From an uncultured Verrucomicrobiota bacterium (lineage in GTDB: Bacteria; Verrucomicrobiota; Kiritimatiellia; RFP12; UBA1067), in the NCBI GenBank assembly GCA_945834475.1, contig CAMAHK010000008.1, forward strand, positions 1 to 51,724: DNA of 51,724 nucleotides, written 5' to 3'. A program made the position numbers and the translations under genes. The notes beneath the pieces were generated by a model that searched no databases, had not been told where the DNA came from, and saw nothing but the letters and a program-made list of their open reading frames with translations. Shown piece after piece: positions 12,354 through 46,075 of the stretch (position 1 is its first letter; each line of letters starts with the position of its first letter).

Positions 12354-12367
12354 GGAATCTTCAAAAT

Positions 12368-12416
12368 TGGTGGGCTATAGTGGATTCGAACCACTGACCT
12401 CTTCCATGTCAAGGAA
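12368..12416 (-). repeat. Left attachment site (tRNA-Val 3' fragment)
   Basis: 49 bp identical to 33755-33803. It holds the anticodon stem-loop, variable loop, T-arm, acceptor 3' strand and CCA of tRNA-Val but no 5' half, so it is an attachment scar and not a tRNA gene. Confidence 0.92.
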
Positions 12417-12553: not shown

Positions 12554-14179
12554 ATGGGACTCAAGCTGATCAAAGACAACGGAGTCGTCCGCAAGATCTG
12601 GTACGGACAATACAAGGAAGCCGGGAAATGGAAAGTCGTCAAATTGACGACTCCCATGCACGGTGAGAAGATCCCAGACTCGCTTTCGGAAGAAGGCGAT
12701 GCCGCCTTTGAACGCAGCCGGGCCCGCGCCCAACTCGAGTTCGAACAGTTTGAGTCCACACGGATGGTCAAAGGGAGCGCCGAGCATCTGACGCGAACGC
12801 TCATCGAGAGCAAGACCGGACAGAAAATCGACGACACACGCCTCGACGAGCTCCCGTTCAAGTGGCGCACCCTTCCGCGCTCCTATACGCCGACTGAAGC
12901 CCGAATGCAAAATGCGGACCGTGCATTCCGTGAGTTTGCCGACTTCGCAAAATGCACCTACCTCTACGAGGTGACGCAAGACATCGCCACAGCCTATTTC
13001 AACAAGGTCCGCTCGGAATATGCCTGGTCCTCAGCCCAGGGCATCATGTCGCTTCTCAAAAGCGCCTTCGCCCGATTCCTGCCCATCGGTGCCGTCAACC
13101 CTTTCGCCGCCGCAATCACTCGCAATCGGGAGATTAACGCGGCGAGGATCAACCGAAAACCCTTGAACGAAGACGAGCTGTTCAAACTCATCGAGGAGTC
13201 CAAGAATGATCCGATGCTTCACGCCCTTACCGTGACCGCCGCGTGCACCGGCATGCGCATTGGCGACGTGTGTAAGTTGACCTGGGACGCCATCGATCTA
13301 CCCAGCGGATTCATTTCGGTCCTGACCGCCAAATCCGGCAAACGCGTCGAGATCCCCATCCTCGAACCATTGCGGATCGTCCTTGAGACAGCGAACACAA
13401 CAAGGTCCTCCGCGACGCCCTTCGTCTTCCCGACAGCCGCGCAGATGTATTCCGCCAATCCGTCCGGCATCATCCATCGCGGCAAGATCCTCTTCGCCCG
13501 CGCCCTGTTCGCCCAAACGTCCCATACCACGCCCAGCGCCGTCAAAGTCGAGCAAGAAGCGAAGAGTCCCGAAGAAATCTTCGCCTGTATTCGTGCGGCA
13601 CGTTTCACCACACAGAAGACCGAACGCTGCATTAAGGTCTATTCGCTCTACATCAGCGGCCTATCCTATCGGCAGATCGAAGCCGAAACGGGCTTGAGCC
13701 GCGGACAAATCGGGGGGTACCTCCACACGATCGAGGAAATCACGCAGACGGCGATCGTCAAATGGCAAAGCGATTGCGCCAACTCCAATACGCGCCTGAT
13801 CAAGATGACGCGCAAAGAAAGGAAGGTCGGAACACAGAAATACGGCAAATGCGCCGCCTCACTTTACGGTTGGCACTCCCTTCGGGCGACCTTTGTCGTC
13901 ACCGCACTCACGAACGGCATTCCCATTGAAGTCGTCCGCAGGATCGTCGGACACTCCACCGTTCGCATGACGGAGGAATACTTCAACCCAACGAAACAGA
14001 TTATGGCCGAAGCCGTCCGAAACAAGATGAGCCGGAGTATCCTCGGCGGCAGTCTGGCACGTCCCGCACTCGCCGAACCCAAGCAATCAGAAGATGCCGA
14101 TGATCTCGCCGCCCTCGCCAAGAAGCTCGCCGCCCTCTCGCCCGCTCAACGCGAACAACTCAAAGCCCTTATCGGCTAA
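12554..14179 (+). CDS. int: Tyrosine recombinase/integrase with internal HTH insert
   Basis: 541 aa, longer than usual. It would integrate and excise the element at tRNA-Val. Catalytic residues: Arg near 234 (CTGMRIGDVCKLTW), His-x-x-Arg near 440-443 (GWHSLRATF), the GHS histidine near 466 and Tyr near 476 (EEYFNP). Between the first Arg and the HxxR box lies a roughly 130-residue insert with a helix-turn-helix (YISGLSYRQIEAETGLSRGQ, about residues 364-385). The second integrase at 49094-50824 has the same insert, N-terminal layout and C-terminal helix, so both belong to one distinctive family. No strong Shine-Dalgarno is seen. Confidence 0.92.
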   Translation: MGLKLIKDNGVVRKIWYGQYKEAGKWKVVKLTTPMHGEKIPDSLSEEGDAAFERSRARAQLEFEQFESTRMVKGSAEHLTRTLIESKTGQKIDDTRLDELPFKWRTLPRSYTPTEARMQNADRAFREFADFAKCTYLYEVTQDIATAYFNKVRSEYAWSSAQGIMSLLKSAFARFLPIGAVNPFAAAITRNREINAARINRKPLNEDELFKLIEESKNDPMLHALTVTAACTGMRIGDVCKLTWDAIDLPSGFISVLTAKSGKRVEIPILEPLRIVLETANTTRSSATPFVFPTAAQMYSANPSGIIHRGKILFARALFAQTSHTTPSAVKVEQEAKSPEEIFACIRAARFTTQKTERCIKVYSLYISGLSYRQIEAETGLSRGQIGGYLHTIEEITQTAIVKWQSDCANSNTRLIKMTRKERKVGTQKYGKCAASLYGWHSLRATFVVTALTNGIPIEVVRRIVGHSTVRMTEEYFNPTKQIMAEAVRNKMSRSILGGSLARPALAEPKQSEDADDLAALAKKLAALSPAQREQLKALIG

Positions 14180-14192
14180 GGAGAAGCCTGTC

Positions 14193-15242
14193 ATGCCCGC
14201 CAATCCGAACAGAAAAGCACTGATCGACTACGTCCAACAAGTCGCAGCCGCCCGAGTTCGCGCTTGCGACGCGAAGTTGAGGCAAGAAGGCTACGAGTAC
14301 GTTGTCTGCGTCCCCAGCCACCAGCAGATCGAAGACATCAACCGACTTGAACGGGCAACGAATCTTTGCATTGATGCCTGCATTCGCCTGAGAGAGAACG
14401 CACGCGCCAAACTTGTCCCCGAACGCGACATAGACATCATTGCAAAAGCGCTTTCGTACCGGATTAGGCTCACCAAGAAAGAATATTCCGATTTTGAAAT
14501 CTACGCCTCGGGTGTCTATTCAGCACTCTTCAACATTATGATTGGGCTTCTCAAGGACGGCGAGCATCGTTCGGAAATCGACGGCACGCCCTTCCAGTCC
14601 GAATGGCAGGAGTTACGAGCCAGCTTGCGTGAATGCGATGGGATCGACGACTGCCTCAATGTCTCGACCGCCAGCACACTTCTGGTTTCAATCAATCGTC
14701 TGCATGCGAAAGAGAGTGTCTGGCACGGAAGGGTTGCCTCTAATGGCGGCGTACCCCCGCCAACTCTTGAATCGGTCGATCAAAAGGCAGACGTCCTCAG
14801 CGCACGGATAAACAAGGTCGAAACGGATGCCGCGAAGGCCAGACAACGGACCGCAGAGAAGTTTTCGCGCCTTACCGCAAAAGTAGCGAACGACTCCAAC
14901 GCTGGCGCTGACGACGCTTTTGAATTCCTTCACCGTGCAATTGCCTACGAGCACATTGCTGCGGCGCTTTCCAAGCCTCGTACGACCCGAATTGGAGTTC
15001 GAGCCCTTATCGAAAATCTCATGAGACACGATTCAACAGGAATGTTCAAGCTTTATTCGATTAAGGGTGCGAGAACGGAGTTACGTCCTGAAGGTGTATT
15101 CTCCGATTTCAAGAACTGGCAACAGAAGAAAGGCGTCTGGAAGAAGTGGCCGAAGGAAAGCAGAAACAAGCGATATGATCCCGTGAGAAAGCCTACGTTG
15201 TGGGTTAACGGTGCAATTCCCCACGAAATCGGCTCGACCTAA
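14193..15242 (+). CDS. Element protein of unknown function
   Basis: 349 aa from the ATG at 14193, preceded by GGAG; 13 bp downstream of the integrase stop, so likely co-transcribed. The sequence is mostly helical. Residues about 210-260 (DQKADVLSARINKVETDAAK and onward) look like a short coiled coil. The C-terminus is basic and Trp-rich (WQQKKGVWKKWPKESRNKRY), which may bind nucleic acid. A hairpin whose left arm covers the last codons may terminate the transcript. No family is recognised; a replication or recombination accessory role is only a guess from position. Confidence 0.7.
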   Translation: MPANPNRKALIDYVQQVAAARVRACDAKLRQEGYEYVVCVPSHQQIEDINRLERATNLCIDACIRLRENARAKLVPERDIDIIAKALSYRIRLTKKEYSDFEIYASGVYSALFNIMIGLLKDGEHRSEIDGTPFQSEWQELRASLRECDGIDDCLNVSTASTLLVSINRLHAKESVWHGRVASNGGVPPPTLESVDQKADVLSARINKVETDAAKARQRTAEKFSRLTAKVANDSNAGADDAFEFLHRAIAYEHIAAALSKPRTTRIGVRALIENLMRHDSTGMFKLYSIKGARTELRPEGVFSDFKNWQQKKGVWKKWPKESRNKRYDPVRKPTLWVNGAIPHEIGST

Positions 15243-18833: not shown

Positions 18834-18878
18834 TTATCACCTCATTTATCACATCATATATCGCCTCATTTATCGCCT
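18831..18878 (-). repeat. 12-bp x4 tandem repeat spanning the HNH start
   Basis: Four imperfect 12-bp units: catttatcacct, catttatcacat, catatatcgcct, catttatcgcct. In minus sense each carries a Shine-Dalgarno-like GAGGTG or GAGGCG and an ATG. The first two units give ATG-AGG-stop or similar mini-frames, and the last gives the HNH start. Copy-number change would alter spacing and the number of start sites. Confidence 0.7.
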
Positions 18879-20056
18879 CACGATAGGGCAACAGCCTCAC
18901 GGGCAAGATCATCTACTTGACGCGGTTCGATACCCTTGTAGATGATTTCCACCGCCCCCGGTCCGGAGATCATCTGCGCGAGGCGATTGAGGATGCAGGC
19001 GTCGACCCGCGTCATCATCTTCTCGCCCGGGAGATACGGCCAGCCAATCGGTGCGAGCATCAGCAGATTTCCCGCTGCACATTGATCGAAGAGCGTGCCA
19101 CCCGGCTTATAGAGCGGCGAAAAGCCCTTGTTGGCGAGCGTGATGACCTTGTGGCCCGCAACAAAAGCCCGCCGTGCGATCTCGCGCTCACCCTCGCTGA
19201 TGCAGGGCGAGATCAGCACCGCGCCATGGGCGGCTTCCTCAAGCAGCGCCTCGCAGCTCTCGCGAAACGCCGCGGTCTCGAGTCGCGGCGGCCTGTCTTT
19301 TAGAATGCGCCCCTGCGCATCGCGAGCGTAGGCGAAGAAGCTGCGCGAGCATTGCACCTGAAGAATCGAAGACGCCTTGAGCAGATGGTGGTTGCCGATC
19401 GCCGCGAAATGGCCGACGAGGCCCTGGCCCAATTCGACCGGCAGATCGCGCAAGACCGCGAAAAGCTCGGGATGCGCCCGCTTCTCCCACAGCCGCCGCG
19501 GGTTGTCGGCCAAATAGGCGAGCTCGCTCGCAACCGCCGCCTCGTCGAAGAGAATCGTATCGACGTAGCCTTCCGACCACAACTTCGGCGCACGCGCCGA
19601 AGCGCAACTCTCGCCAGTTGCGCTGGGCCGCGTGCGGCCCAGGCGGTCAAGCCAGCGCGAAGTCGCCTTAGACTTGAAACTGCCGACAATCGCCCCCAAA
19701 GGCTTACGCTGACGAGACCTCACCGCCAAAACCACATGGAGATGATCGGGCATGATCTGCACCCCCAAGACTTCAACACCAGCCCATTGTCGCGGTAACT
19801 CGTCAAACACGCCCTCCACCAGCCGCCCCAGCTCGCTCAACTCGACAAACGCCCCTCGCCCTTCCGCGTAATCGAGCCGCCCGAGCGCGCGGCTTCTGCG
19901 ATCGGCGAGCGTGATCGTAATCTGATAGGCGCCCTTCCCGCAGTAATCCCAATTTCGGCAACGACGCCCCATGCGATGAATGACATCGCGCATCCACGCG
20001 CCCGTCTCTTCATCGACATGCCACCCCGGCGGTGGAATCTGTGAATTACCGCTCAT
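18878..20056 (-). CDS. RAYT-like HUH protein fused to a Rossmann-like domain
   Basis: 392 aa from the ATG at 20056, which overlaps the methylase stop by 11 bp. Residues about 40-195 are a Y1/REP-associated-transposase (TnpA_REP) domain: AYQITITLADRRSRALGRLD, then MPDHLHVVLAV with the HUH pair His105/His107, SFKSKATSRWL, WSEGYVDTI and ELAYLADNPRR (Tyr181 is the candidate nucleophile; Tyr164 is another). Residues about 230-392 are an added domain: GAVLISPCISEGEREIARRA, KVITLANKGFSPLYKPGG and CAAGNLLMLAP. It looks like a SLOG/DprA-type nucleotide-binding fold. No flanking transposon ends are seen, so it is probably a domesticated nickase or recruiter within the operon, not a free transposon. Confidence 0.75.
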   Translation of the reverse strand: MSGNSQIPPPGWHVDEETGAWMRDVIHRMGRRCRNWDYCGKGAYQITITLADRRSRALGRLDYAEGRGAFVELSELGRLVEGVFDELPRQWAGVEVLGVQIMPDHLHVVLAVRSRQRKPLGAIVGSFKSKATSRWLDRLGRTRPSATGESCASARAPKLWSEGYVDTILFDEAAVASELAYLADNPRRLWEKRAHPELFAVLRDLPVELGQGLVGHFAAIGNHHLLKASSILQVQCSRSFFAYARDAQGRILKDRPPRLETAAFRESCEALLEEAAHGAVLISPCISEGEREIARRAFVAGHKVITLANKGFSPLYKPGGTLFDQCAAGNLLMLAPIGWPYLPGEKMMTRVDACILNRLAQMISGPGAVEIIYKGIEPRQVDDLAREAVALS

Positions 20057-23000
20057 CCTTTCTGAACGCCTCAAGCACCATGCGCATGGTGCGGTATTCT
20101 CCGAATTCGGCGATTTCCTTTTCCTTGAGGACGCGGAAGGATTCGGAGGGATAGTCGGGGCCGTAGACGGCGGAGGGATCGAGGATGTAGGTGAGCTCCT
20201 GCTCGTTGAGACCGTAGAGCTTCGCATACCGCGCATCCAGCTCCGCTCGCAGAACCGCCCGGCGTTCTGGATCGAAAACAAACGGCTCGCCCTCGTACCC
20301 CAGCGCCTCCGCCCAGCCCTTCAGCGAATACGACGTGTACGTCAATTCAAGTACACGCGGAACGATGAAGTCGATGTCGGCCTGTGTGTAAGCCGTGGGA
20401 GCGAGGGTGGGGAACTGATATGCATACGAATATGATATATTGGTTCCACCAAGCTTTTGCCTAACACCCCAATCATGCACAATCGCATTAAAATCAGCCA
20501 ACAAGCAAGCCTGAAGTCTAGTCTCGGTCTCCGTTGAAAAAGTAATTATCGAATCGCCAGCCGCAGAATAAGGGAATACAGAAGCAATCATCGTTCGATT
20601 ATCAACAGCACGGGCAATCTTGCGCCATCCGAACAGATATCTAGGGATGGCGCTTTCAAAGCGCGCGTCGATGTCTTTCCGGTGCAGCCAATATCGCGGC
20701 CTTATCTCAACATTAGGACTCTGTTTCTCTTCGACCGATAAATCACAAGTTTCAGATGCATTAGAGTAAGTAGCCCATCTGTGGTCATAGTGATGAAAGA
20801 GCTTCGCTTCATACAAAGGTAAACAATCGTCACTACATTCCAATTCAAACAAGTCACTATCTAGTGACATGTCAAACAACCTACGGAGGACAACACCCCA
20901 AGGATTTCCTCCCGCAGCTTCCGTCTTTAACATTACGCCGACTTGTTTGTAAATGTGCTTCGCCAGCTCGGCATCGGCCTTCGAGCGAAAGATCGGAGCC
21001 GTTTTCGTATTGGGATTAATCAACGCAAAGTCGTCTGCCGTCAGCGAGAAATGGCGCCGTTCATCGGCCAGATCCGAAGGATGGCCCATGAAAAACGCGA
21101 AGTCCGTCTGCTCGGCAGGACCCAATGTCAAAAGCGAAATCTTAAACTGCGGATGAACTGCCTCAAACAATCGTCTGCCACTTGCCGCATTCTCGAAATC
21201 ATAGAGAGAAACAAGAGAGCGACATGTCACCATGGCCGCGAAAAGCGCCTTGTTGGAATCATCGGTGCAGATACCGGTCGGAACGATGAACCCGGCTCGA
21301 CCTTGCGGATTGCGAACATGCAGGATTGTCTCGCAGAGAGTCGAGTAAAGATTGACGTCACCGACGTTGGAAAGCGTAAACCGTCCAGATTCGTGAATGA
21401 ACGTACTGACAACATCAGCACGCCGCAAAGCCGTCTGGAAGGCCGCGTAGAGCGCGGGGTTGGTCTGCGGCAACGCGTCGATCAGTTTCTTGCGTTGCGC
21501 GGCATTCTGCGCATTGGCGATCGATTCATCGTGCGCAGCGAAGAATTCTTTTTCCTGGAGCTTCACGCGATCCCACGGCGGGTTCGTCAGGATGCAATCG
21601 AAGCCGCCCTTGGCGAAGACCGACGGGAAGACGAGCGGCCAGTGGAGGACACGGGCATCCTTGCAGGCCTTCGCACAGTTCGCCAGCATTTCTTCCGTTG
21701 GCTTTTGATAGAGTGTCGATGAGGGATTCAGCAATGCGAGAAGATTGACAGTCGTCGGAAGAGATGGATCGGCATGCTGCTCGACACCCCATGCGCCGCC
21801 AAGCATATCGGAAACCGGCACATCGACACATTTTTTCGGAAGCAGGAACGCCGCCGTAAACAGATCGGCCGCTTGAGACAGCCCATTGAATGCCGCGCTC
21901 TCGCAGTAGTCGGCATATGCCACCTTCTTCGCCTCGACATCTTCCAATGTCACTTCGGGCATTGCGTCAATCGTCTGATAGGCATCCAGCAGAGATGTTT
22001 CCGTCGAGGCAAACAATGTCTCGACATAGCGGCTATCCGTCTTGATGTTTTTGAGCGCCTGTCGATTGATCTTGGCGAGTTCCTGACACGCCGCCTTGTC
22101 GTCACCCGGCAACGGCTTGTAGGCCGCAGCGGGGATTCCCCCTTCCAGGAGCTTGAGATTGTCGAGACCCAATGTCGCATCGCCGCAGACGAAGTGCGCA
22201 TCGAGGAAGGAAAGCGGCTGTCCGGGGACGACCGATTCGATCCAGAGCGTAATCTTCGCAAGCTCGACGGCGAGCGGGTTGATGTCGACACCGTAGATGC
22301 AATGCGAGATGACATCGCGAAGCGCATGCTGATAGACTTCGGGCGACGAATCATTCCCGCGCATCTGCACGAGCGCCGTGGCCATCCGTCGCGCGGCGGC
22401 TACGGTGAAGTGTCCGGAACCGCAGGACGTATCGATTACATTCAGCTCCAACAGCGCCTTCTCGGGATCGGGTGCCGTGCCGCAGCGTTCGATCAACGGA
22501 TCAAGCGCCGACTCCACCTGCTTGTCGACGAGCGAGGACGGCGTGTAGTAGCTACCGGTCGTCTTGCGGTTATTGCCCGCCGCACCGACAAGCGTCAGGG
22601 TCTGCGTCGCAGCCGTGTAGTTCGGCACGAGCTCAAGAATACCCTCGTAGACCGAGCCGAACTCTTCCGCACCCATGTCGCGGTAGTTCACCGGGAAGAG
22701 CTTCTTGCCCGCATCGATATACCGAAGCGCCCGCATCGCGGCGATGAGGTCCGCATTGGCAAGCTTCGCGTCGTTCAAATGCGCGCACGCAGAGGGCTCG
22801 AAAATGCCGCCCAGGGCCGTCAGGCCGAGACGCGGCTCACCATGCGCCAGACCAGCAAAGACGCGACTGACGCCCGCGTAGAGGTCCGTGTGGCGATCCG
22901 AGGAACCGGCCGCGTAACGTGCCGCAATCCGCCTGAGGCGCGCCATCGAATAGCCTTCACGGTAAACCTTCTTCACCGCCTCGGAGGTGCCGGGCGTGTG

Positions 23001-33745: not shown

Positions 33746-33754
33746 CTTCTGAGG

Positions 33755-33803
33755 TGGTGGGCTATAGTGGATTCGAACCACTGACCTCTTCCATGTCAAG
33801 GAA
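33755..33803 (-). repeat. Right attachment site within tRNA-Val
   Basis: 49 bp identical to 12368-12416; the crossover must lie within this interval, which runs from the anticodon stem to CCA. Confidence 0.92.
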
Positions 33804-36768: not shown

Positions 36769-37632
36769 ATGAAGATTCCTGACATTCTGTTCTCTGCCAA
36801 GCCCTCGGTCTCGTTCGAGGTCTTTCCTCCGAAGCAGAACGCCGCGTTCGAGCCGATCGTCGCGGCCGTGGACCGTCTCTGCGCCCTGAAGCCCGCCTTC
36901 ATTTCCGTCACCTACGGGGCGGGCGGGGGCGCGAACACGAACACGCGCACCATTGCCGAGCACATCGTCCGCCAGGGCGTGACGCCCCTCGCGCATCTCA
37001 CCTGCCTCACCTCGACGCGCGAGAAGATCCAGGAGGAACTCGCCGCGCTCCGCAGCGCCGGCGTCGCCAACATTCTTGCCCTCCGCGGGGACAGGCCCGT
37101 CGGCGAGACCGAGCTGCCGGGACACTACGCCCACGCGAGCGACCTCGCCGCGGTCATCCGCGACGTCGGCGGCTTTTCGATCGGCGGCGCGTGCTATCCC
37201 GAATGCCATCCCGAATGCGAGCATCTCGCCGATGACATCGAGAACCTCAAGAAGAAGGTCGACGCGGGCGTCCAGTTCCTGACGACGCAGATGTTCTTCG
37301 AGAACAACATCCTTTACCGCTATCTCGCGAAGGTCCGCGAACACGGCATCACCGTGCCGGTCGTCGCAGGCGTGATGCCCGTCACCAACGGCAAGCAGAT
37401 CAAGCGCATCTGCCAGCTCTCGGGCACATATCTGCCCTCGCGCTTCAAGATGATCGTCGACAAGTTCGGCGAGAAGCCGGACCAGATGTTCTCTGCCGGC
37501 ATCGCCTACGCGACCGAGCAGATCATCGACCTTTTCGCGAACGGCGTCAACCACGTGCACGTCTACACGATGAACAAGCCGGAGATCGGCGAGGCGATTC
37601 TCCGCAACCTGAGGTCGATCGTTGAAGCTTGA
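36769..37632 (+). CDS. metF: 5,10-methylenetetrahydrofolate reductase
   Basis: 287 aa TIM-barrel flavoprotein that reduces methylene-THF to methyl-THF, the methyl donor for MetH. SFEVFPPK (catalytic Glu), FISVTYGAGG, HLTCLTSTR, LALRGD, TQMFFEN, and the GVMPVTN motif are all present. It starts a + strand unit metF - MetH reactivation domain - metH with overlapping ends (11 bp, then 4 bp). Confidence 0.94.
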   Translation: MKIPDILFSAKPSVSFEVFPPKQNAAFEPIVAAVDRLCALKPAFISVTYGAGGGANTNTRTIAEHIVRQGVTPLAHLTCLTSTREKIQEELAALRSAGVANILALRGDRPVGETELPGHYAHASDLAAVIRDVGGFSIGGACYPECHPECEHLADDIENLKKKVDAGVQFLTTQMFFENNILYRYLAKVREHGITVPVVAGVMPVTNGKQIKRICQLSGTYLPSRFKMIVDKFGEKPDQMFSAGIAYATEQIIDLFANGVNHVHVYTMNKPEIGEAILRNLRSIVEA

Positions 37633-38215
37633 CCGCAGCGAGATTCTGCGCTACATGAAGATGGGCCGCGCCGAACCGGACGCGGTCCTGACGGTGCGCA
37701 TCGACCGCCTCGAACACGAGGTCCTGGCCGCGGCGCGGCCGGTCTCGCAATACCTCCGTACCGCGGTGCGTCTCGCCCGCGGCGCTGGCCAGCCGCTTGG
37801 AGACGCTGCGGGCGAGGACGCACCGCGGTACGAAATCGGCCCCCTCACCCTCGCAAGTCGCGACCTCTGGCGGTGTCTGCGGGGGGCTCGCGAGGCGTAT
37901 CTCTTTGCGGCGACGCTCGGACATGACGTCGACCGGCTCATTCGCAAGTACGCGGCGTTGAGCGCGGCCGACCTTCTGATCGTGCAGGCGATTGCGGCGA
38001 CGGCCATCGAACAGTACATCGACGACGAGACCGCGAGCTGGGGCGAGAAACTCCTGCCGCGCTACTCGCCCGGCTACGGCGACCTTCCTCTTTCGGTTCA
38101 ACCTGACTTTCTCGCGGCGCTGGACGCTCGGAAGACGCTCGGCATCACGCTGACCGAGACCTTTCTCATGATTCCCTCCAAAAGCGTGACGGCCATCATC
38201 GGAATTCAGCCATGA
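37622..38215 (+). CDS. Stand-alone MetH reactivation (AdoMet-binding) domain
   Basis: 197 aa with a TTG start overlapping the metF end by 11 bp (alternative ATG at 37655). The C-terminal RYSPGYGDLP, then TLGITLTETFLMIPSKSVTAIIG, is the activation-domain signature that in E. coli forms the MetH C-terminus. Here it is a separate gene directly before a MetH that lacks it, so the split protein presumably reactivates cob(II)alamin in trans. Residues about 45-70 (LRTAVRLARGAGQPLGDAAG) are encoded by a family A palindrome, an in-frame insert in the N-terminal part. Confidence 0.85.
   Translation: MKLDRSEILRYMKMGRAEPDAVLTVRIDRLEHEVLAAARPVSQYLRTAVRLARGAGQPLGDAAGEDAPRYEIGPLTLASRDLWRCLRGAREAYLFAATLGHDVDRLIRKYAALSAADLLIVQAIAATAIEQYIDDETASWGEKLLPRYSPGYGDLPLSVQPDFLAALDARKTLGITLTETFLMIPSKSVTAIIGIQP
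37756..37832. repeat. Family A palindrome, copy 1
   Basis: Perfect 16-bp outer arms cgtaccgcggtgcgtc / gacgcaccgcggtacg enclose ctcgcccgcggcg and its partial complement with a variable centre including cttggagacg. In frame within the MetH activation gene. Confidence 0.88.
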
Positions 38216-40701
38216 TCATTCAGCTCGACGGTGCGATGGGCACCCAACTTCAACAGCGCGGACTTCAGCCCGGAGAGATTCCCGAGCTCTGGAACCTGAC
38301 CCGCCCCGGCGACATCGTCGCGATTCACCGCGCCTATGTCGAGGCCGGCGCGAACATCATCTCGACGAACACCTTCGGGGCGAACCCCGCGAAATACCAC
38401 GGCGACGCGCCGCTCAAGAACGTCATCGCGGCGGCCGTTGCCAATGCCCGCGCGGCGGGTGCCGAGAGGGTCGCGCTGGACGTCGGACCGACCGGCAGAC
38501 TCTTAAAGCCCTCGGGCGACTTCGAGTTCGACGCCGCCTACGACGCCTTCGCCGAACAGATCCGCCTCGGCGCGGAAGCGGACGCCGATCTCATCTTCCT
38601 CGAGACCTTCGCCGACACGTACGAGCTCAAGGCCGCGCTTCTCGCCGCGAAGGAAAACGCGAATCTGCCGATTCTCGCGTCCGTCTCGCTGTCCGAGGAC
38701 GGCAAGCTCCTGACGGGCGCCGATGTCGATACGATCGCCGCGCTCTTCAACGCGCTCAAGCCCGACGCCTGCGGCTTTAATTGCGGACTCGGTCCCGACA
38801 AGCTTCTCCCCTTCGTCCAGCGTCTCGCGACGCGCACGCACATCCCAATCATCGTCAAGGCGAATGCGGGACTCCCCAAGGTCGTGGACGGGCAGACGGT
38901 CTTCACGGTCGATCCCGAGGCATTCGCAAAGGACATCGCCGCCTGCATTGCCGCCGGCGCCACCTACGTCGGCGGCTGCTGCGGAACGACACCGCAGCAC
39001 ATTGCCGCGGTGAGGAACATCGTTCCGCGGTGCGTCTCGCCCGCGGCGGGTAACAGCAACTTGGAGATTCATCCGTCGGACGATGGCTGCTTGGTGACGC
39101 CGCGGGCGAGGACGCACCGCGGTACGACACTTCCCACAGTCGTCTCCTCCTACTCGCGCACCGTCGAACTCCCCCTGAACGACTCCCTCGTCATCGGCGA
39201 GCGGATCAATCCGACGGGGAAGAAGAAGCTTCGCGAGGCGTACAAGGCGGGCGACATGGGGTACATTCTGCGCGAGGCGATTGCTCAGGTTGAGGCGGGG
39301 GCGCCTATTCTTGACGTCAATGCCGGCGTCCCCGGGATCGACGAGCCGAAGGTCTTGCGCGAGACGGTCGAGGCGATCCAGTCGATCACCGACACGCCGC
39401 TCCAGATCGACACGTCCGATCCCGTCGCGCTCGAGAACGCGCTCCGGCACTACAACGGCAAGGCGATGATCAACTCGGTGAACGCAAAGGAAGAGGTGAT
39501 GAACGCCGTCTTCCCGATCGTCGCGAAATACGGCGGCGTCCTCGTCGCGCTCACGCTGGACGAGAACGGCATTCCGCCGACGGTCGAGGGACGCCTCGCG
39601 CTCGCGAAGAAGATGATCGCGCGCGGCGCCGAGTACGGACTCACCAAGGACGACTTCGTCATCGACGTCCTCTGTCTCGCGATGAGCGCCGATCCGACGA
39701 GCGTCCCCGTGATCCTCGAGTCGCTCCGCCGCATCCGCGCCGAACTCGGCGTGAGGACGGTCCTGGGCGTTTCCAACATCTCCTTCGGGCTCCCCGCGCG
39801 TCCGCTCCTCAACGCGACGTTCTATTCCCTCGCCCTCGAGGCGGGACTCACCAGCGCGATCATCAATCCGCTCTCAGTCGAGATGATGACCGCCTACAAG
39901 AGCTGGCGCGCCCTGACGGGACGCGACCCGGCGTGTGGGGAGTGGATCAAGGCCGTGGAGACGGGAAGTGTCGGAGGAAGCGCTTCACCCGTACCGCGGT
40001 GCGTCTCGCCCGCGGCACTCACCCAGCCGACAACGGCCAGCAACTTGGAGACGCCGCAGGCGGGGACGCACTGCGGTACGGGGCTGACCTCCGCCATCAT
40101 CCACGGACTCCGCGCCGACGCAGCGCAACTCTCGCGCGACGCGCTCGCCGCGGGCACGACACCGATCGCGCTCATTGACGGCGAGATCGTGCCGGCACTG
40201 GAGATCGTCGGCAAGGGATTTGAATCGGGCAAGCTCTTCTTGCCGCAGCTGCTGATGGCGGCCGAAGCGGCTTCGGCGGCGTTCGAGGTCATTCGCGCGG
40301 CACTCGAACAGTCAGGCAGTGCCGCCGAGCCGAAGGGACCGATCCTCATCGCGACCGTCAAGGGCGATATCCACGACATCGGCAAGAACATCGTCAGGGC
40401 GCTGCTTGAGAACTACGGCTTCAGGGTCATTGACATGGGCAAGGACGTCGAGCCCGAGGCGATTGTCGCCAAGGTGCTCGAGACGAAGTGCAAGCTCGTC
40501 GGACTTTCGGCGCTCATGACGACGACCGTCGTCTACATGAAGGAGACGATCGAAAAATTGAACGCCGCCGATCCGTCCATCAAGACGTTTGTCGGCGGTG
40601 CGGTGATGACGCCCGAGTACGCCAGCGAAATCCACGCGACCTACTACGCGAAAGACGCGATGGCGTCGGTGCGGCTCGCGGAGGAGTTCTTCAAAAGCTA
40701 G
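38212..40701 (+). CDS. metH: Cobalamin-dependent methionine synthase lacking the activation domain
   Basis: 829 aa. The homocysteine domain (1-270) has DGAMGTQLQQRGL, GFNCGLGP and GGCCGTTPQH (zinc cysteines). The pterin domain (about 315-585) has IGERINPTGKKKL, LDVNAGVPGIDE and DPTSVPVILES. The Cap and cobalamin-binding modules (about 625-829) have DIHDIGKNIV (His ligand to cobalt) and a GLSALMTTT stretch. The fourth module is supplied by the preceding gene, whose stop overlaps this start (ATGA). Two family A palindromes fall exactly in interdomain linkers (residues about 270-305 and 593-623), consistent with tolerated insertions. Confidence 0.94.
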   Translation: MIIQLDGAMGTQLQQRGLQPGEIPELWNLTRPGDIVAIHRAYVEAGANIISTNTFGANPAKYHGDAPLKNVIAAAVANARAAGAERVALDVGPTGRLLKPSGDFEFDAAYDAFAEQIRLGAEADADLIFLETFADTYELKAALLAAKENANLPILASVSLSEDGKLLTGADVDTIAALFNALKPDACGFNCGLGPDKLLPFVQRLATRTHIPIIVKANAGLPKVVDGQTVFTVDPEAFAKDIAACIAAGATYVGGCCGTTPQHIAAVRNIVPRCVSPAAGNSNLEIHPSDDGCLVTPRARTHRGTTLPTVVSSYSRTVELPLNDSLVIGERINPTGKKKLREAYKAGDMGYILREAIAQVEAGAPILDVNAGVPGIDEPKVLRETVEAIQSITDTPLQIDTSDPVALENALRHYNGKAMINSVNAKEEVMNAVFPIVAKYGGVLVALTLDENGIPPTVEGRLALAKKMIARGAEYGLTKDDFVIDVLCLAMSADPTSVPVILESLRRIRAELGVRTVLGVSNISFGLPARPLLNATFYSLALEAGLTSAIINPLSVEMMTAYKSWRALTGRDPACGEWIKAVETGSVGGSASPVPRCVSPAALTQPTTASNLETPQAGTHCGTGLTSAIIHGLRADAAQLSRDALAAGTTPIALIDGEIVPALEIVGKGFESGKLFLPQLLMAAEAASAAFEVIRAALEQSGSAAEPKGPILIATVKGDIHDIGKNIVRALLENYGFRVIDMGKDVEPEAIVAKVLETKCKLVGLSALMTTTVVYMKETIEKLNAADPSIKTFVGGAVMTPEYASEIHATYYAKDAMASVRLAEEFFKS
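39021..39126. repeat. Family A palindrome, copy 2
   Basis: Left arm starts cgttccgcggtgcgtctcgc, right arm ends gacgcaccgcggtacg, with centre taacagcaacttggag. Encodes PRCVSPAAGN to RARTHRGT in the Hcy-pterin linker of MetH. Confidence 0.88.
39990..40080. repeat. Family A palindrome, copy 3
   Basis: cgtaccgcggtgcgtctcgc to gacgcactgcggtacg with centre agcaacttggagacgccgc. Encodes VPRCVSPAAL to AGTHCGT in the linker between the pterin and Cap modules of MetH. The right arm has drifted slightly. Confidence 0.87.
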
Positions 40702-40906
40702 GGCTTCATTCAGTGAGTGAATCTGTGGCCATATAGCAATGTCATCTCCGTTTCCGACATTACTCAGTTGCGGCGCCCCTGGGGCGAAAGCCCCCAGATA
40801 CTTGAATGCAGGAAAATATTGCGCGTATTCCACGTTTGTGCCTGACACAATCGTGGAAAGCGCAAACTCGGCCCCTCCTGGTGACAAGTATTAAACTGAT
40901 GGCAGT
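40702..40906. other. Non-coding gap between convergent metH and cdd
   Basis: 205 bp. It holds small inverted repeats (attca-gtgag-tgaat near 40710; ctggggc-gaaa-gcccccag at 40779-40797). No T-run follows the stem, so terminator status is unclear. A minus-strand open stretch is present but shows no start context or family. Confidence 0.3.
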
Positions 40907-41365
40907 TTAGATGTAAAGTGCCGAGGGTTTCTCGATTTCTGCTGCCGCGCGGAGCTCGAGCGATTCGGGGCCGAAGCTTTCGGGGAGAAGCTGCTCGAGC
41001 GTGTATTCGCGGTAGTCTGTCGGCGACTTGGCGATGTAGACCTTCATCGTCTTCGGGTCACCGAATTCGCGCATCACCTGACGGCAGAGTCCGCAGGGTG
41101 CGCAGTAGTCCGTCACGACGCCCTTCGGGCCGCCCGCCACGGCGACGGCCAGGATTCGGCGCTCGCCGGCGTTGACGGCCTGGAAGATTGCGCTGCGTTC
41201 GGCGCACATCGTGCCGCCGTAGGAGGCGTTCTCGACGTTCGCGCCGCCGTAGATCTTGCCGGACGCGGCGAGCACCGCCGCGCCGACGTGAAAGTTCGAG
41301 TACGGCGCATAAGACTTCTGCGTCATCTGAAGCGCCGTCTCGATGAGGGTCGAGGTGTCGTCCAC
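40907..41365 (-). CDS. cdd: Cytidine deaminase
   Basis: 152 aa homotetrameric-type enzyme of pyrimidine salvage. NVENASYGGTMCAERSAIFQ carries the zinc Cys and the catalytic Glu, and APCGLCRQVMREF the other two zinc cysteines. The start is GTG at 41365, immediately after the ilvE stop (TAAGTG), so it is read from the ilvE transcript. Length is slightly above the usual 130 aa because of a C-terminal extension. Confidence 0.93.
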   Translation of the reverse strand: MDDTSTLIETALQMTQKSYAPYSNFHVGAAVLAASGKIYGGANVENASYGGTMCAERSAIFQAVNAGERRILAVAVAGGPKGVVTDYCAPCGLCRQVMREFGDPKTMKVYIAKSPTDYREYTLEQLLPESFGPESLELRAAAEIEKPSALYI

Positions 41366-42394
41366 TTACTTCACCTCAACGCACCAGCCGTGCGTATCCT
41401 TGACCGTGCCGTACTGGATGCCCTGGACCTGGTCGTAAAGCTTCTGGAGGACGGGATGGACCGTGTCCTTGTCGGAAATCTTGACGACCTGCTTGCCGCG
41501 GGTGATCTCCCAGACGGGCGTGATCACAACGGCCGTGCCGAGCGCGGCGACCGCGTCGAACTTCTTGATCTCCGTGAACGGGATCGGACGGCACTCGACG
41601 GTGATGCCGAGGTCTTCCGCGCACTGCTTGAGGGACATGTTCGTCACCGACGGGAGCACCGAGCAGCTGTCGGGCGTGACGTACTTGCCGTCCTTCGTGA
41701 TGCCCGCGAAGTTCGAGGTCGCGAACTCCTCGATGTACTTGTGCGACTTCGCGTCGAGGTAGAGCTCGACCGGCCAGCCGTCGTGCTTCGCCTTCTCGTG
41801 CGCGAAGATGCCCGCGGCGTAGTTGCCGCCGACCTTGACATCACCCATGCCGTGCGGTGCCGCGCGGTCCCAGTCGTCGAAGATCACCGCACGGACGGGC
41901 TTGATGCCGCCCTTGTAGTACGCGCCGACCGGCATGACCATGATCATGAACGTGTATTCCTTCGACGGTGCGACGCCGATCTGCGGACCCGTGCCGATAA
42001 GCAGCGGACGGATATAGAGCGAACCGCCCGTCCCGTACGGCGGCACATACTCGGCGTTCTTCTTCACGATCGCCTTGCAGCACTCGACGAACGTCTCGAC
42101 GGGGACCGGCGCCATGCAGGTGCGAAGGGCCGTGCGGTACATGCGCTTCGCGTTCTCCTCGGGACGGAAGATGACGATCTTGCCGTCCTTCTGACGGAAC
42201 GCCTTGATACCCTCGAAGCACTCCTGGCCATAGTGGAGGCACGCCGCGCCGATGTGCATCGTGATCTCGGGATCCTTCACGAACTTCGGCTTGGACCACT
42301 TGCCATCCTTCCACGTCATGCGCAGATGGCAGTTCACGTCCGAGAACCCGAAGCCGAGTTCTTCCCACTTGATACCCTTCTTAGGAGCTTTCAT
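41366..42394 (-). CDS. ilvE: Branched-chain amino-acid aminotransferase
   Basis: 342 aa fold-type IV PLP enzyme that interconverts Leu/Ile/Val and their keto acids with glutamate. Start ATG at 42394 has AAAGGAAA in front; the upstream TTG at 42400 is less likely. Visible are the FEGIKAFRQKDGKIVIFRPE N-part, GTGGSLYIRPLLIGTG, KVGGNYAAGIFAHEKAK (PLP Lys region) and SVTNMSLKQCAEDLG. This is the longer eukaryote-like BCAT2 layout, not the 300-aa E. coli IlvE type. Confidence 0.93.
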   Translation of the reverse strand: MKAPKKGIKWEELGFGFSDVNCHLRMTWKDGKWSKPKFVKDPEITMHIGAACLHYGQECFEGIKAFRQKDGKIVIFRPEENAKRMYRTALRTCMAPVPVETFVECCKAIVKKNAEYVPPYGTGGSLYIRPLLIGTGPQIGVAPSKEYTFMIMVMPVGAYYKGGIKPVRAVIFDDWDRAAPHGMGDVKVGGNYAAGIFAHEKAKHDGWPVELYLDAKSHKYIEEFATSNFAGITKDGKYVTPDSCSVLPSVTNMSLKQCAEDLGITVECRPIPFTEIKKFDAVAALGTAVVITPVWEITRGKQVVKISDKDTVHPVLQKLYDQVQGIQYGTVKDTHGWCVEVK

Positions 42395-42427
42395 GTTCAA
42401 TTTTTCCTTTCGAGTTAAAGAAGTCGG

Positions 42428-45400
42428 TCAGCGCTGTCGGAAGAGCGGCGCGGCGATGTCGTAGAGATCCTGTTCCTTCTGCAGCCGCGAGAAGATCGTG
42501 TTCTTGTCGAGGCGGTAGGCCTGGATGAAGCTCTCCTGTGCGGCTTTTCGCTTGTTCTGGCGCTGCTGCACCTTTGCGAGATCCGCCCACGCGTTCGCGT
42601 CCGTCGCACGGAGCCGCAGGTACTTCGAGAGCGCCTTCTCGGCCTCCGCGTCGATGTGCGCCTCGGCGAGCATCTGTGCGGCGAGCTGCAACGTCTGCGC
42701 GTCGGCGAGCTTGTCGACGAGCGCACGCACGAGCTGCCCGGCGTCGCCGATCCGGCCCATTTCGTAATAGCACGTCGCGAGCGCGAAGATCTCCTGGTCC
42801 GTGAGACGCGTCTTCGGATCGCTCCGCTTCGCCTCCAGCCGCTCGAGCTCGGCTGTGAGCGTGCGGATGCGCGTGACATAGCTCCGAAGCGAGGCTGTGC
42901 GGCGGTTGTTCGGGTCGATCTTGTCCGTGTATTCCATCATCTCGAGCGCGACGTCGTACTTGCGGAACGGCAGGAGGCACTCCTGCGCGTAGCGGAACGA
43001 CGCCTCGGGCGAGGCCGGATAGAGGAGCACCGCCTCGCGGAACGCCTGCGCGCCCTCGCGGTAGCGACCCTGCTTGTTGTAGAGTCCGGCAAGCGCGGCC
43101 CGGAGCTTCGAGAAGCTCTTCTGTCCCGCGAAGTCGCGGCGGTACATCGGATCGTCGAGAAGCCGGCGCGTGTACCAGTCCCAGAAGTCGCGGTCCTGCG
43201 CCGCGCGCTTCGCGTCATACGGTGTCGGCTTCGCGTTGATCTTCATGATGAGACCATGCGGCGAAAGGTACGGATACATCCACGGAATCACATACGACTC
43301 CTCGATGTAGAACGCGTGGCGGTTCTTGTCGTGGTCGTGCATCATCTTCGTGAGGATGCCGTTGATCTCCATCACGCCGAGCGCACCCGTCACCTGCACG
43401 CGGCCGTTCTCGATCTTGAGGTCGCCGTTCGCGGGACGCTTCCCGCTCTGCACCTCGTCGACGTAGATGTTGAACGCCTCGGCCGAGTCCTCCTTCGCCG
43501 GGATCCAGATCTCATCGCCGTAGAGGTCGCGCTGCACCGACATGTACGTGTCATCCGCCAGCGCGTTCTGCGTGATGAGGTAGACGTCGGGACGGAACAG
43601 CGCCGAGTAGATCATGTACGTCGGCACGAAACGCCCCGGATCGGTGCCGCCGAAGAAGATCGAGAACTTGTCCATCGGCGGCGGATACGTCGGATCGGGC
43701 AAGGGTTCCTCGTCCGCGACGATCTGCTCCTTGATCGCGTTCGCACCCTCAAGCTGATACGCGCCGAACTGCCACCCGAAGGTGTGTCCGTTCTGCTCAC
43801 ACCCGCCGAGCTTGAACGCGACCTCATTGACGCCGAGCTGATACGTGCCGCAGTAGTTGTCGACGAGCGGATAGACGAACGCGATGAGGACCATCGCAGC
43901 CGAAAGAAGAAGAGGGAGGTGCGTTTGCCAGCGCCACGGCGTGAGGTCACGCCGGGTACTTGGTAGCTCGGCGGACGACGATTCCGAGAGTACCCGGCGT
44001 GACCCCACGCCGAGGCGCTCTCCCAGCATCTTAAGTGCCCAGACGGCGGCGAAGACGAGTCCGTAGCCGATCCAGAGCGCGAGCATTGCGTGCGAGGCGA
44101 TGAACTTCACCTTCTGGATGAAGCCATCCTGCAGGTCGCCCTTGACGTTCGCGAGGCCGATCAGGAGGAAGCTCATTAACAGGAAGCAGACGAGCGCCGG
44201 CACCATCCACTGCCAGAACGCCTTGCGGTTCTCCTTCCTGACGATCCAGTGCCCCGCCGCAAACGGCACGAGCGCGAACGGAATGAGGAGGTCCGTAAAC
44301 TGGACGCGCACGTCCTCGAAGTAATTGAGGATCTGTCCAAGGTTCGGTAGCTGGAAGCCGATCGCCTCGTACTGTCCGCGCATGAGCGCATGCTTAAAGC
44401 CCTCCCACGTGCGCGGATAGCCCCAGTTCATCGGCGGATTGCGCAGGTCGGAGACGATCGGCATGTACGCGTAGAACGAAATGCCGAGCTGCGCGAAGAA
44501 CGCCGCGCCGGCAACCGCGCGTCCGTTCGGGAGCGTCGCCCAGATGAGCGCGAGCAAAACGAAATTCCACGCGATCGGCCAGCCGAAGTACCACGAGCAC
44601 GGATGCGTGAGCCCGTTGAGCGCGCCGTGCGCGAGGAGCGTGAACGCCGCGATGTGGAGACCCGCGACCGGAATCGCGTAGCAGAGACCCTTCTTAACCG
44701 TGCAGGAGAGTCCGATCAGGAGCGCGATCACCACCCAGAAGATGAGCGTCGACTTTCCCCACGGATAGGCCTCGCCCATGTACCCGCCGTCCCCGGCCGA
44801 CGGCACCAAAGCCGCCGCGACAACCGCGACCAACGCGAAGCCGGCGGAGATCATCAATTCCCTCGTACCGCGGTGCGTCTCGCCCGCGGCGTCTCCAAGC
44901 CCATCCCCCTTCATCGCGGCCAAAACCGCCGCGACGACCGACCCCGCGATCATCGCCGCAATGAACGCATAGCGCGTCGGCGCGATGAGCGGCGCGACCT
45001 CGGCCGTCACGCCCGTCCACGTATTCGTCGACGTGAAGAGGAACGACGAGAGGAAGATGAGCGCGGCACCGGCCCCGCCGCCGTAGAGGATGATTGAGGT
45101 GTAGAGATGAGGTGTAGAGCGGAAGACCGGCAAACGATTCTGCTTGGCGTAGATCGCGAGGACGATTGCACCGATGAGGAGGACGAGACCGAGGACGATT
45201 GCCGTCGTGGAGGGCGTCGAAATCGCCTGGTTGACGAGCGGCAGGTGCTTGTTGATCGCATCGGCCGACATGTAGCGGTCAGCGCGGACGAGCTGGCCGA
45301 CCTGCAAGATCTGCCAGGTGAGCGCGACCGGGATCAGGTAGAGCATGAAGTCGCGGAACATCGCGAGGTTCTTGAGCGCGATGATGAGTGCGAGGGGCAC

Positions 45401-46075
45401 GATCGCAAAGAGGAGTACCTGGTAGTTCGTGAGCCCAAGGCCGAAGATGAACGCCGTCGCCCAGAGCATCTTGTCGGACGGTTTGCGCATCCACCGGTAC
45501 GACAGGAGGAAGACTCCCATTAGGAAGAGCGCGTTGAGCGAGTAGATCTCGACAATCGTCGACTGCGACCATTCGACCGGCGAGAGCGCGAACGTCAGCG
45601 CGCCGGCGACACCGCCACCAAAGGCGAGAATCCCCGTACCGCGGTGCGTCTCGCCCGCGGCGGGTAACAGCAAGCTTGGAGACGCCGCGCCCGAGACGGG
45701 CGGCGGTACGGGGGCGCTTGCGCACCGCGGTACGGAGCCCACGAAATCGTGCGCACTGCGGCAAATGAGCATCGCCGTGCAACCGGCCGCGAACGCGCCG
45801 AAGACGGCCGAGCAGAGCGAGACGCACCACGCCGGCGTCGGATGGCCCATGTACGTCACCCAGCCGAACGCCTTGCAGAAGAGCCACGAGCAGAACGTCC
45901 AGAACGGATAGCCCGGCGGATGCGGCACGCCCAGATTCGCGGCCGCCGTCGCGAGTTCGCCCGAGTCTTCAAGGCCCACACTCGGCCCGAGCGTGAACGC
46001 GTAAACGAGAAAAGTCAGCACTGTGGCCGTCCAGAACGACGCCCAGTCGAGTTTGGTAAAAAAACGATCCCTCAT
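42428..46075 (-). CDS. DUF2723 membrane protein with C-terminal TPR-like region
   Basis: 1215 aa. The N-terminal half is a polytopic membrane protein of the DUF2723/PMT-like glycosyltransferase group: TLGPSVGLEDSGELATAAAN-LGVPHPPGYPFW near residues 28-60 is the family signature, followed by many hydrophobic helices to about residue 740. A periplasmic part follows, and from about 1010 helical repeats (LRAALAGLYNKQGRYREGAQ; LATCYYEMGRIGDAGQLVRA) like TPRs. It probably transfers sugars to exported proteins. Three inserts from palindromic repeats lie in loops: residues about 114-147, 392-404 and 688-713. A -10 TATAAT at 46087-46092 gives a very short leader. Confidence 0.85.
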   Translation of the reverse strand: MRDRFFTKLDWASFWTATVLTFLVYAFTLGPSVGLEDSGELATAAANLGVPHPPGYPFWTFCSWLFCKAFGWVTYMGHPTPAWCVSLCSAVFGAFAAGCTAMLICRSAHDFVGSVPRCASAPVPPPVSGAASPSLLLPAAGETHRGTGILAFGGGVAGALTFALSPVEWSQSTIVEIYSLNALFLMGVFLLSYRWMRKPSDKMLWATAFIFGLGLTNYQVLLFAIVPLALIIALKNLAMFRDFMLYLIPVALTWQILQVGQLVRADRYMSADAINKHLPLVNQAISTPSTTAIVLGLVLLIGAIVLAIYAKQNRLPVFRSTPHLYTSIILYGGGAGAALIFLSSFLFTSTNTWTGVTAEVAPLIAPTRYAFIAAMIAGSVVAAVLAAMKGDGLGDAAGETHRGTRELMISAGFALVAVVAAALVPSAGDGGYMGEAYPWGKSTLIFWVVIALLIGLSCTVKKGLCYAIPVAGLHIAAFTLLAHGALNGLTHPCSWYFGWPIAWNFVLLALIWATLPNGRAVAGAAFFAQLGISFYAYMPIVSDLRNPPMNWGYPRTWEGFKHALMRGQYEAIGFQLPNLGQILNYFEDVRVQFTDLLIPFALVPFAAGHWIVRKENRKAFWQWMVPALVCFLLMSFLLIGLANVKGDLQDGFIQKVKFIASHAMLALWIGYGLVFAAVWALKMLGERLGVGSRRVLSESSSAELPSTRRDLTPWRWQTHLPLLLSAAMVLIAFVYPLVDNYCGTYQLGVNEVAFKLGGCEQNGHTFGWQFGAYQLEGANAIKEQIVADEEPLPDPTYPPPMDKFSIFFGGTDPGRFVPTYMIYSALFRPDVYLITQNALADDTYMSVQRDLYGDEIWIPAKEDSAEAFNIYVDEVQSGKRPANGDLKIENGRVQVTGALGVMEINGILTKMMHDHDKNRHAFYIEESYVIPWMYPYLSPHGLIMKINAKPTPYDAKRAAQDRDFWDWYTRRLLDDPMYRRDFAGQKSFSKLRAALAGLYNKQGRYREGAQAFREAVLLYPASPEASFRYAQECLLPFRKYDVALEMMEYTDKIDPNNRRTASLRSYVTRIRTLTAELERLEAKRSDPKTRLTDQEIFALATCYYEMGRIGDAGQLVRALVDKLADAQTLQLAAQMLAEAHIDAEAEKALSKYLRLRATDANAWADLAKVQQRQNKRKAAQESFIQAYRLDKNTIFSRLQKEQDLYDIAAPLFRQR
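43937..44012. repeat. Family B palindrome in the DUF2723 gene
   Basis: 24-bp arms at 43937-43960 and 43989-44012, matching at 23 of 24 positions when inverted (core ggcgtgaggtcacgccgggt). In frame; encodes the Ser/Arg-rich insert near residues 688-713 between membrane segments. Confidence 0.8.
44864..44899. repeat. Family A half-element
   Basis: Only one arm: cgtaccgcggtgcgtctcgc continuing cgcggcgtctccaag. In minus sense it encodes LGDAAGETHRGT in the DUF2723 protein. A partner arm is missing, so it is a decayed or partial copy. Confidence 0.8.
45095..45120. repeat. gaggtgtaga tandem words in the DUF2723 gene
   Basis: Two units tgaggtgtagaga/tgaggtgtagagc in frame. The complementary ctacacct words also occur at 5702-5718 between fabZ and hisD. 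Confidence 0.45.
45635..45734. repeat. Family A palindrome, composite copy 4
   Basis: Left arm cgtaccgcggtgcgtctcgc with gggtaacagcaa and cttggagacgccgc, then a rearranged right side with a second cgcaccgcggtacg end. Encodes PRCASAPVPPP to GETHRGT in the DUF2723 protein, residues about 114-147. It looks like two partial elements joined. Confidence 0.82.

Follow-up and report, generated by a model that had tools for sequence, protein, structure and literature searches.

A REP-like palindrome family lying in frame within genes of a gut Kiritimatiellia species

The window analysed here is a stretch of 51,724 nucleotides, contig C8 of the 2.57 Mb genome (134 contigs) of an uncultured gut bacterium of the Kiritimatiellia. 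Three of its genes, coding for a MetH activation domain, for MetH and for a DUF2723/TMEM260-like protein, carry copies of one palindromic element, called family A below (Table 1). With up to three mismatches the arm CGTACCGCGGTGCGTC matches the window 12 times against 1.3 expected, a number that none of 100 shuffled sequences reaches, and 11 of the 12 matches fall in 37757-45734. Four full copies and one half copy lie in these genes. The sequence CTTGGAGACG is exact in three full copies and takes the form CTTGGTGACG in the fourth, and it is present as its reverse complement in the half copy; read on the gene strand, this half copy gives the peptide GLGDAAGETHRGT, within a part of the protein that varies in length. 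All three host reading frames remain open across their copies. The original prediction, which had placed these five copies in the same three genes, with their frames kept open and with the peptides PRCVSPAA, GETHRGT and RTAVRLARG among the products, agrees with the sequence in each of these points. The MetH of the window is closest to that of other gut Kiritimatiellia (76% identity over the best segment, in a horse-faeces genome), and an Rfam scan of the window returned a tRNA only.

Table 1. Positions of the host genes, the palindromes and the RAYT genes (window coordinates unless a contig is given)
Feature	Location	Strand	Context
Host gene, MetH activation domain (Met_synt_B12)	37622..38215	+	
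Host gene, metH, 829 aa	38212..40701	+	
Host gene, DUF2723/TMEM260-like with TPR repeats, 1215 aa	42428..46075	-	
Family A full copy (REPIN), 78 nt	37756..37833		in MetH activation gene; peptide RTAVRLARGAGQPLGDAAGEDAPRYE, lacking in relatives
Family A full copy (REPIN), 108 nt	39020..39127		metH linker between homocysteine methyltransferase and pterin-binding domains; residues 270-306
Family A full copy (REPIN), 93 nt	39989..40081		metH linker ahead of B12-binding_2 domain; residues 593-624
Family A single REP (half copy)	44863..44902	+	in DUF2723/TMEM260-like gene
Family A composite REPIN	45634..45735		in DUF2723 gene; family A arms with variant REP at 45683-45711(-)
Family B copies	1076-1117 and 10200-10241		
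RAYT, 222 aa	C1:14092-14760	-	between full copies of family A at 13884-14055 and 14789-14867
RAYT2	C17:31622-32185		flanked by family B

The family A unit begins with CGTA and continues with CCGCGG-T-GCG, a loop TC(C)T, CGC-CCGCGG and a short tail ending in (C/A)AG. It forms a bulged hairpin of 9 bp, and every half of a full copy folds into a hairpin of its own; the complementary arms of full copies reach about 38 nt, well past 16 nt. The head CGTA is invariant in the A1 and A2 types, whose collection required CGTACCG, and arms collected with two mismatches agree on it. Several sub-families differ on both sides of the lower stem (CCGCAG/CTGCGG, CCGTGG/CCACGG, CCGCCG/CGGCGG and CCGTCG/CGACGG), and the upper stem has compensating variants (GCCG/CGGC or GCCCG/CGGGC). 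In a set of 25 distinct sequences, 16 cells have both sides changed against 4.4 when shuffled, with slid controls falling to 0-4, and another hairpin type, whose bulge lies on the opposite side, gives 11 against 3.5; none of 500 shuffles is as high in either case. The unit of counting is the sequence rather than the event, and the use of a head motif and of pairing itself in gathering the sets makes the share of paired bases higher. The bulge itself is conserved. Family A is thus a REP in the broad sense, an imperfect hairpin of 20-50 nt with a paired, covarying stem and a conserved unpaired tetranucleotide at its 5' foot. Family A lies outside the GTAG superfamily (GTAG or GTRG/GYAG), its head being CGTA followed by the first C of the stem.

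In the full copies two REPs are arranged head-out around a spacer, which is the REPIN form. There are 24 such copies, 74-183 nt long, in 483 kb. Taken as single strands, those of the window fold far above shuffled sequences (z -4.2 to -8.1, DNA parameters), the copy in the MetH activation gene having a fold of -41.7 kcal/mol and the lowest z. Such full copies, with inverted arms and a variable middle, could also be MITEs of a classical DDE insertion sequence, the terminal inverted repeats of which are cut and pasted by the IS transposase. This origin is quite improbable: the target duplications anticipated at the insertion borders do not rise above chance in the 24 full copies (for lengths of 2-8, observed and expected numbers are about equal), single hairpins or tandem 39-nt units form the majority of clusters, folding and covariation are seen in each half separately, and the transposase found next to the repeat is a RAYT. 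Y1 enzymes, such as those of IS200/IS605, are not expected to make target duplications, and family A behaves as expected for them.

The copy numbers given here were obtained from searches of the whole genome, and the statistics on context from about 480 kb read around the copies, a sample chosen for containing them. With up to two mismatches the arm CGTACCGCGGTGCGTC is found at 261 places in the genome, against 2 for the reversed control. The identical pattern search applied to 58 relatives, 34 of them from the same genus, gave nothing above background, and an exact 22-base pattern has no match in the GTDB species collection or in IMG/VR when the genome itself is left out. A covariance model, which takes account of the structure and tolerates changes in the stem, detects at least 148 copies in the genome (a lower bound, 150 candidates having been scored) and none in 39 relatives. 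Family A is a REP bloom in one of the 35 species compared within the genus.

There are ten Y1 matches in this genome. One of them, on contig C1, is a probable RAYT gene with a full copy of family A about 35 nt past its stop and another 28 nt ahead of its start, and with further copies outside these. The protein matches the NCBIfam model of REP-associated tyrosine transposases (REP_Tyr_transpos, E 2.6e-16) under the equivalog cut-off, and it is divergent, its scores lying below the curated limits (59.8 of 80 bits in NCBIfam, 20.7 of 23 in Pfam). It contains MPNHLHV, with an HxH motif, and NPDAAGL, with no certain assignment of the catalytic Tyr, and a sequence search of the PDB gave no match to it. 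Among the same-genus genomes searched, only G007 and G008 hold distant relatives (28-38% identity, 49% over one short piece). At the level of the order, nearly all relatives of the C1 RAYT are flanked on both sides by different repeated palindromes of their own; that of G007 is a GTAG hairpin. The RAYT-linked palindromes of G007 and G038 were considered as further blooms and rejected, with 12 copies each.

The second RAYT, RAYT2, is paired with palindrome family B, GACGCGACA[CT]TC[CT]TGTCGCGTC, which is unrelated to family A and has 104 copies in the genome. Each RAYT is flanked by copies of its own REP family, the arrangement of a REP-RAYT pair, or REPtron. That a single genome holds two such pairs, each with a RAYT and a palindrome of its own, is the strongest evidence for the REP-RAYT reading. 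From the position of the C1 RAYT we infer that it is the mobiliser of family A, with single-stranded DNA as the probable intermediate. In the original prediction the element was seen as a mobile-looking palindrome inserted in frame, which stands, while its REP hairpin, its REPIN form and its association with a RAYT were missed; with these three, the REP/REPIN-RAYT class is the better comparison. The RAYT2 reading frame (L114:6085-7230) has an N-terminal extension with GASAT/GVSAT minisatellite repeats.

The position of the copies relative to genes was judged by a codon-usage classifier on both flanks, which misses some true intragenic cases such as the copy in the MetH activation gene. Of the 72 family A clusters that could be judged in this way, 44 have flanks that continue one coding frame, in 3 the frame is shifted, 8 have genes on different strands and 17 lack clear coding sequence on at least one side. 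The intragenic share (61%, 44/72) is similar to that of random 78-nt spans in the same stretches (53.7%), and genes are therefore not avoided; the predominantly extragenic distribution of classical REPs is not seen. Among clusters with coding flanks on one strand, 44 of 47 are in frame. Setting this number against one third (p 5e-18) was rejected as a measure that overstates frame keeping: the classifier gives about 93% for sequence that is undisturbed, and the proper statement is therefore that no frame disruption is detectable. The sample of family B comprises 27 clusters, of which 16 lie within genes in frame and two are shifted. The lack of stop codons from all six frames of the 38-nt REP was considered as a special design and discarded, because six-frame openness is frequent in Markov shuffles (35%) and in window segments (17%).

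The choice among the reading frames is strongly uneven. Counting arms, which are not independent within tandem arrays, the 5' arm is read as VPRCV 21 times, as RTAV twice and never in the third frame, and the 3' arm as THRGT 33 times, as DAPRY 9 times and once in the third frame. Intragenic single REPs have their head downstream in 21 of 29 cases (p 0.024). On their outer flank the copies have a weak motif, C-A-N-C-H-C, which is present too at copies outside genes and which in coding DNA prefers phases 0 and 2. This preference may account for much of the bias of the 3' arm; the bias of the 5' arm (21/23) exceeds the expectation derived from it (p 2e-7). The explanation favoured here is that arginine-rich frames are selected against, the codon phase of the target contributing as well. 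The copies are probably translated, and their frame would be set by selection and not by the chemistry of insertion.

The strong frame bias, with the 5' arm beyond what the flank motif predicts, and the 21:8 orientation bias would also be consistent with intragenic copies being retained for useful peptides, such as flexible linkers or interaction tags, as a selected protein module. This is unlikely, as about 40% of the clusters are not within one gene by the classifier, the frequency within genes is near random, the hosts are unrelated and their homologues manage without the insert; moreover, purging of arginine-rich frames such as RTAVRLARG accounts for the bias equally well. Another possibility is raised by the strong hairpins of the full copies (z -4 to -8, DNA parameters), which might act in the RNA and be spliced out or bypassed by ribosomes to give a protein lacking the insert; translational bypass elements are known elsewhere. 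An open frame would not be required for splicing or bypass. It is nevertheless kept in 44 of 47 clusters, and the reading frames are biased, which makes such removal highly unlikely.

The host proteins are diverse. All of 30 further host reading frames that were scanned have Pfam domains, and they include Dxr, IspH-UppS, MurE, ArgS, MutS, UvrD, HrpB, TsaD, QueA (two inserts), QueC, HydF, an M50 protease and Psd. Homologues of known structure lack the inserts of ArgS, MurE and QueA (two sites), both QueA inserts lying at gaps in the solved homologue, and the insert of Dxr is situated in a stretch of variable sequence. The larger insert of the DUF2723 protein is absent from congeners, whose 78-89% identity breaks off at the site and is restored within a few residues, and none of the MetH homologues has the insert peptide. 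In the AlphaFold model of MetH, the pLDDT falls below 50 only at residues 276-304 and 588-622, which coincide with the two inserts, as would be expected from the linker or loop positions originally proposed; the low values may in part reflect the variability of homologues there. In the fused IspH-UppS reading frame, the LytB/IspH part contains four tandem 39-nt REP units with GLGDAAGETHRGT repeated (L043:7211-7372). The same two MetH linkers in congeners carry other repetitive peptides, for example GGSPGGSGV repeats and LSDPKPTLTDPKP (L076, L093, L100, L106, L108), which suggests that repeat families of other kinds inserted at these places in those species.

Since the inserts fall at sites of variable length in homologues, they might be taken for ancient protein segments or products of recombination hot spots and not for mobile DNA. 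The same DNA, however, occurs between genes as well as in over 30 unrelated proteins, and in either orientation, and family A is absent from 34 congeners; relatives lack the peptides while the repeat is spread over the whole genome, and this reading is thus extremely improbable.

By contrast, family A is very probably a REP/REPIN family with a bloom in a single gut Kiritimatiellia species, mobilised by a RAYT and tolerated as insertions in loops. The process might be described as follows. TnpAREP proteins recognise the single-stranded form of REP hairpins and cleave alongside it, the tetranucleotide helping to choose the site (PMC8266576), and by analogy the C1 RAYT, a Y1 HUH protein, most likely recognises CGTA and the bulged hairpin as single-stranded DNA. 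It would then copy or move single REPs and head-out pairs to new sites, leaving no target duplication and not avoiding genes. Copies that break a gene or lie out of frame would be purged; those in frame in surface loops or domain linkers would persist, being tolerated because they are short. On translation each surviving copy would add about 13 to 37 residues to its host protein. A more far-reaching and rather doubtful proposal is that this is a coding-compatible REP system, in which at least two unrelated RAYT/REP pairs spread as freely in genes as between them. The flank motif C-A-N-C-H-C, with its C residues tending to wobble positions, would favour certain codon phases, and translatable loops would thereby be seeded systematically across the proteome, essential enzymes included.

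Family A shares with the REP/REPIN-RAYT systems of Pseudomonas, E. coli and Stenotrophomonas (PMC3116915, PMC8266576) a short hairpin with a conserved 5' tetranucleotide, the occurrence as singlets and inverted doublets, hundreds of copies and a RAYT flanked by them. It differs in its head, CGTA/GTAC instead of GTAG, in the divergence of its RAYT and in not avoiding genes; the most frequent REP 16-mers of P. fluorescens SBW25 are found 1,067 times, and in only 14 of these places do they overlap a gene (PMC3116915). Intragenic REPs are already known. Those of the GTAG/CGTC type are richest in Opitutus terrae, a verrucomicrobial relative, and in Rickettsia conorii, where REPs and their dimers lie in reading frames as they do here; they encode 20-30 residues, for which flexible linkers or loops were proposed, and most REPs are nevertheless intergenic (PMC3733652). 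In the present genome, by comparison, the intragenic frequency is near random, there are two unrelated families and the tag is different. The palindromic elements of Rickettsia (Ogata 2000, 2002, as cited in PMC10969869) likewise insert in frame in unrelated proteins with a preferred peptide, and family A resembles them in this respect, as had been suggested at first. The likeness is one of behaviour and not of descent. The phylum is different, and the sources consulted mention no RAYT partner. The intragenic MITEs of Coxiella (QMITE), in the accounts of PMC10969869 and PMC5896051, are also small non-autonomous repeats capable of in-frame fusions; unlike them, family A has no target duplication and each of its halves has its own hairpin. 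A literature search for Kiritimatiellota palindromes found none. The new points here are the tag, which is not GTAG, the bloom in a single species, the presence in one genome of two families that do not avoid genes, the host genes, which number in the dozens and have empty sites where this was checked, and the quantified bias in reading frame.

REPs were named for being extragenic, and intragenic ones have so far been treated as curiosities. This one genome provides dozens of intragenic examples, several of them in usually essential, single-copy enzymes. With empty sites in the relatives checked, the cost of short mobile DNA in proteins and its role in the evolution of loops therefore become measurable. 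Two REP families and two RAYTs in one cell are well suited to a test of RAYT specificity.

A different kind of element occupies another part of the window. The region 12359-33831 has the look of an integrative island of 21 kb inserted in a tRNA gene: a 58-nt fragment of such a gene is present both at 12359-12416 and at 33746-33803 (93%), and the gene of a phage-type integrase lies at 12554-14179. Inside it, with no palindrome of family A or B beside it, lies the gene of a 467-aa protein (18878-20281) that has a Y1 domain of the REP type (REP_Tyr_transpos, E 4.6e-10) followed by a long C-terminal part, and that may be a domesticated RAYT fusion; a similarly built protein is encoded on contig C66 (L118:6175-7581). 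The island also carries an Eco57I-type methylase, an SNF2 helicase and a DEAD/MZB helicase, a gene order that we take to be reminiscent of the DISARM defence system.
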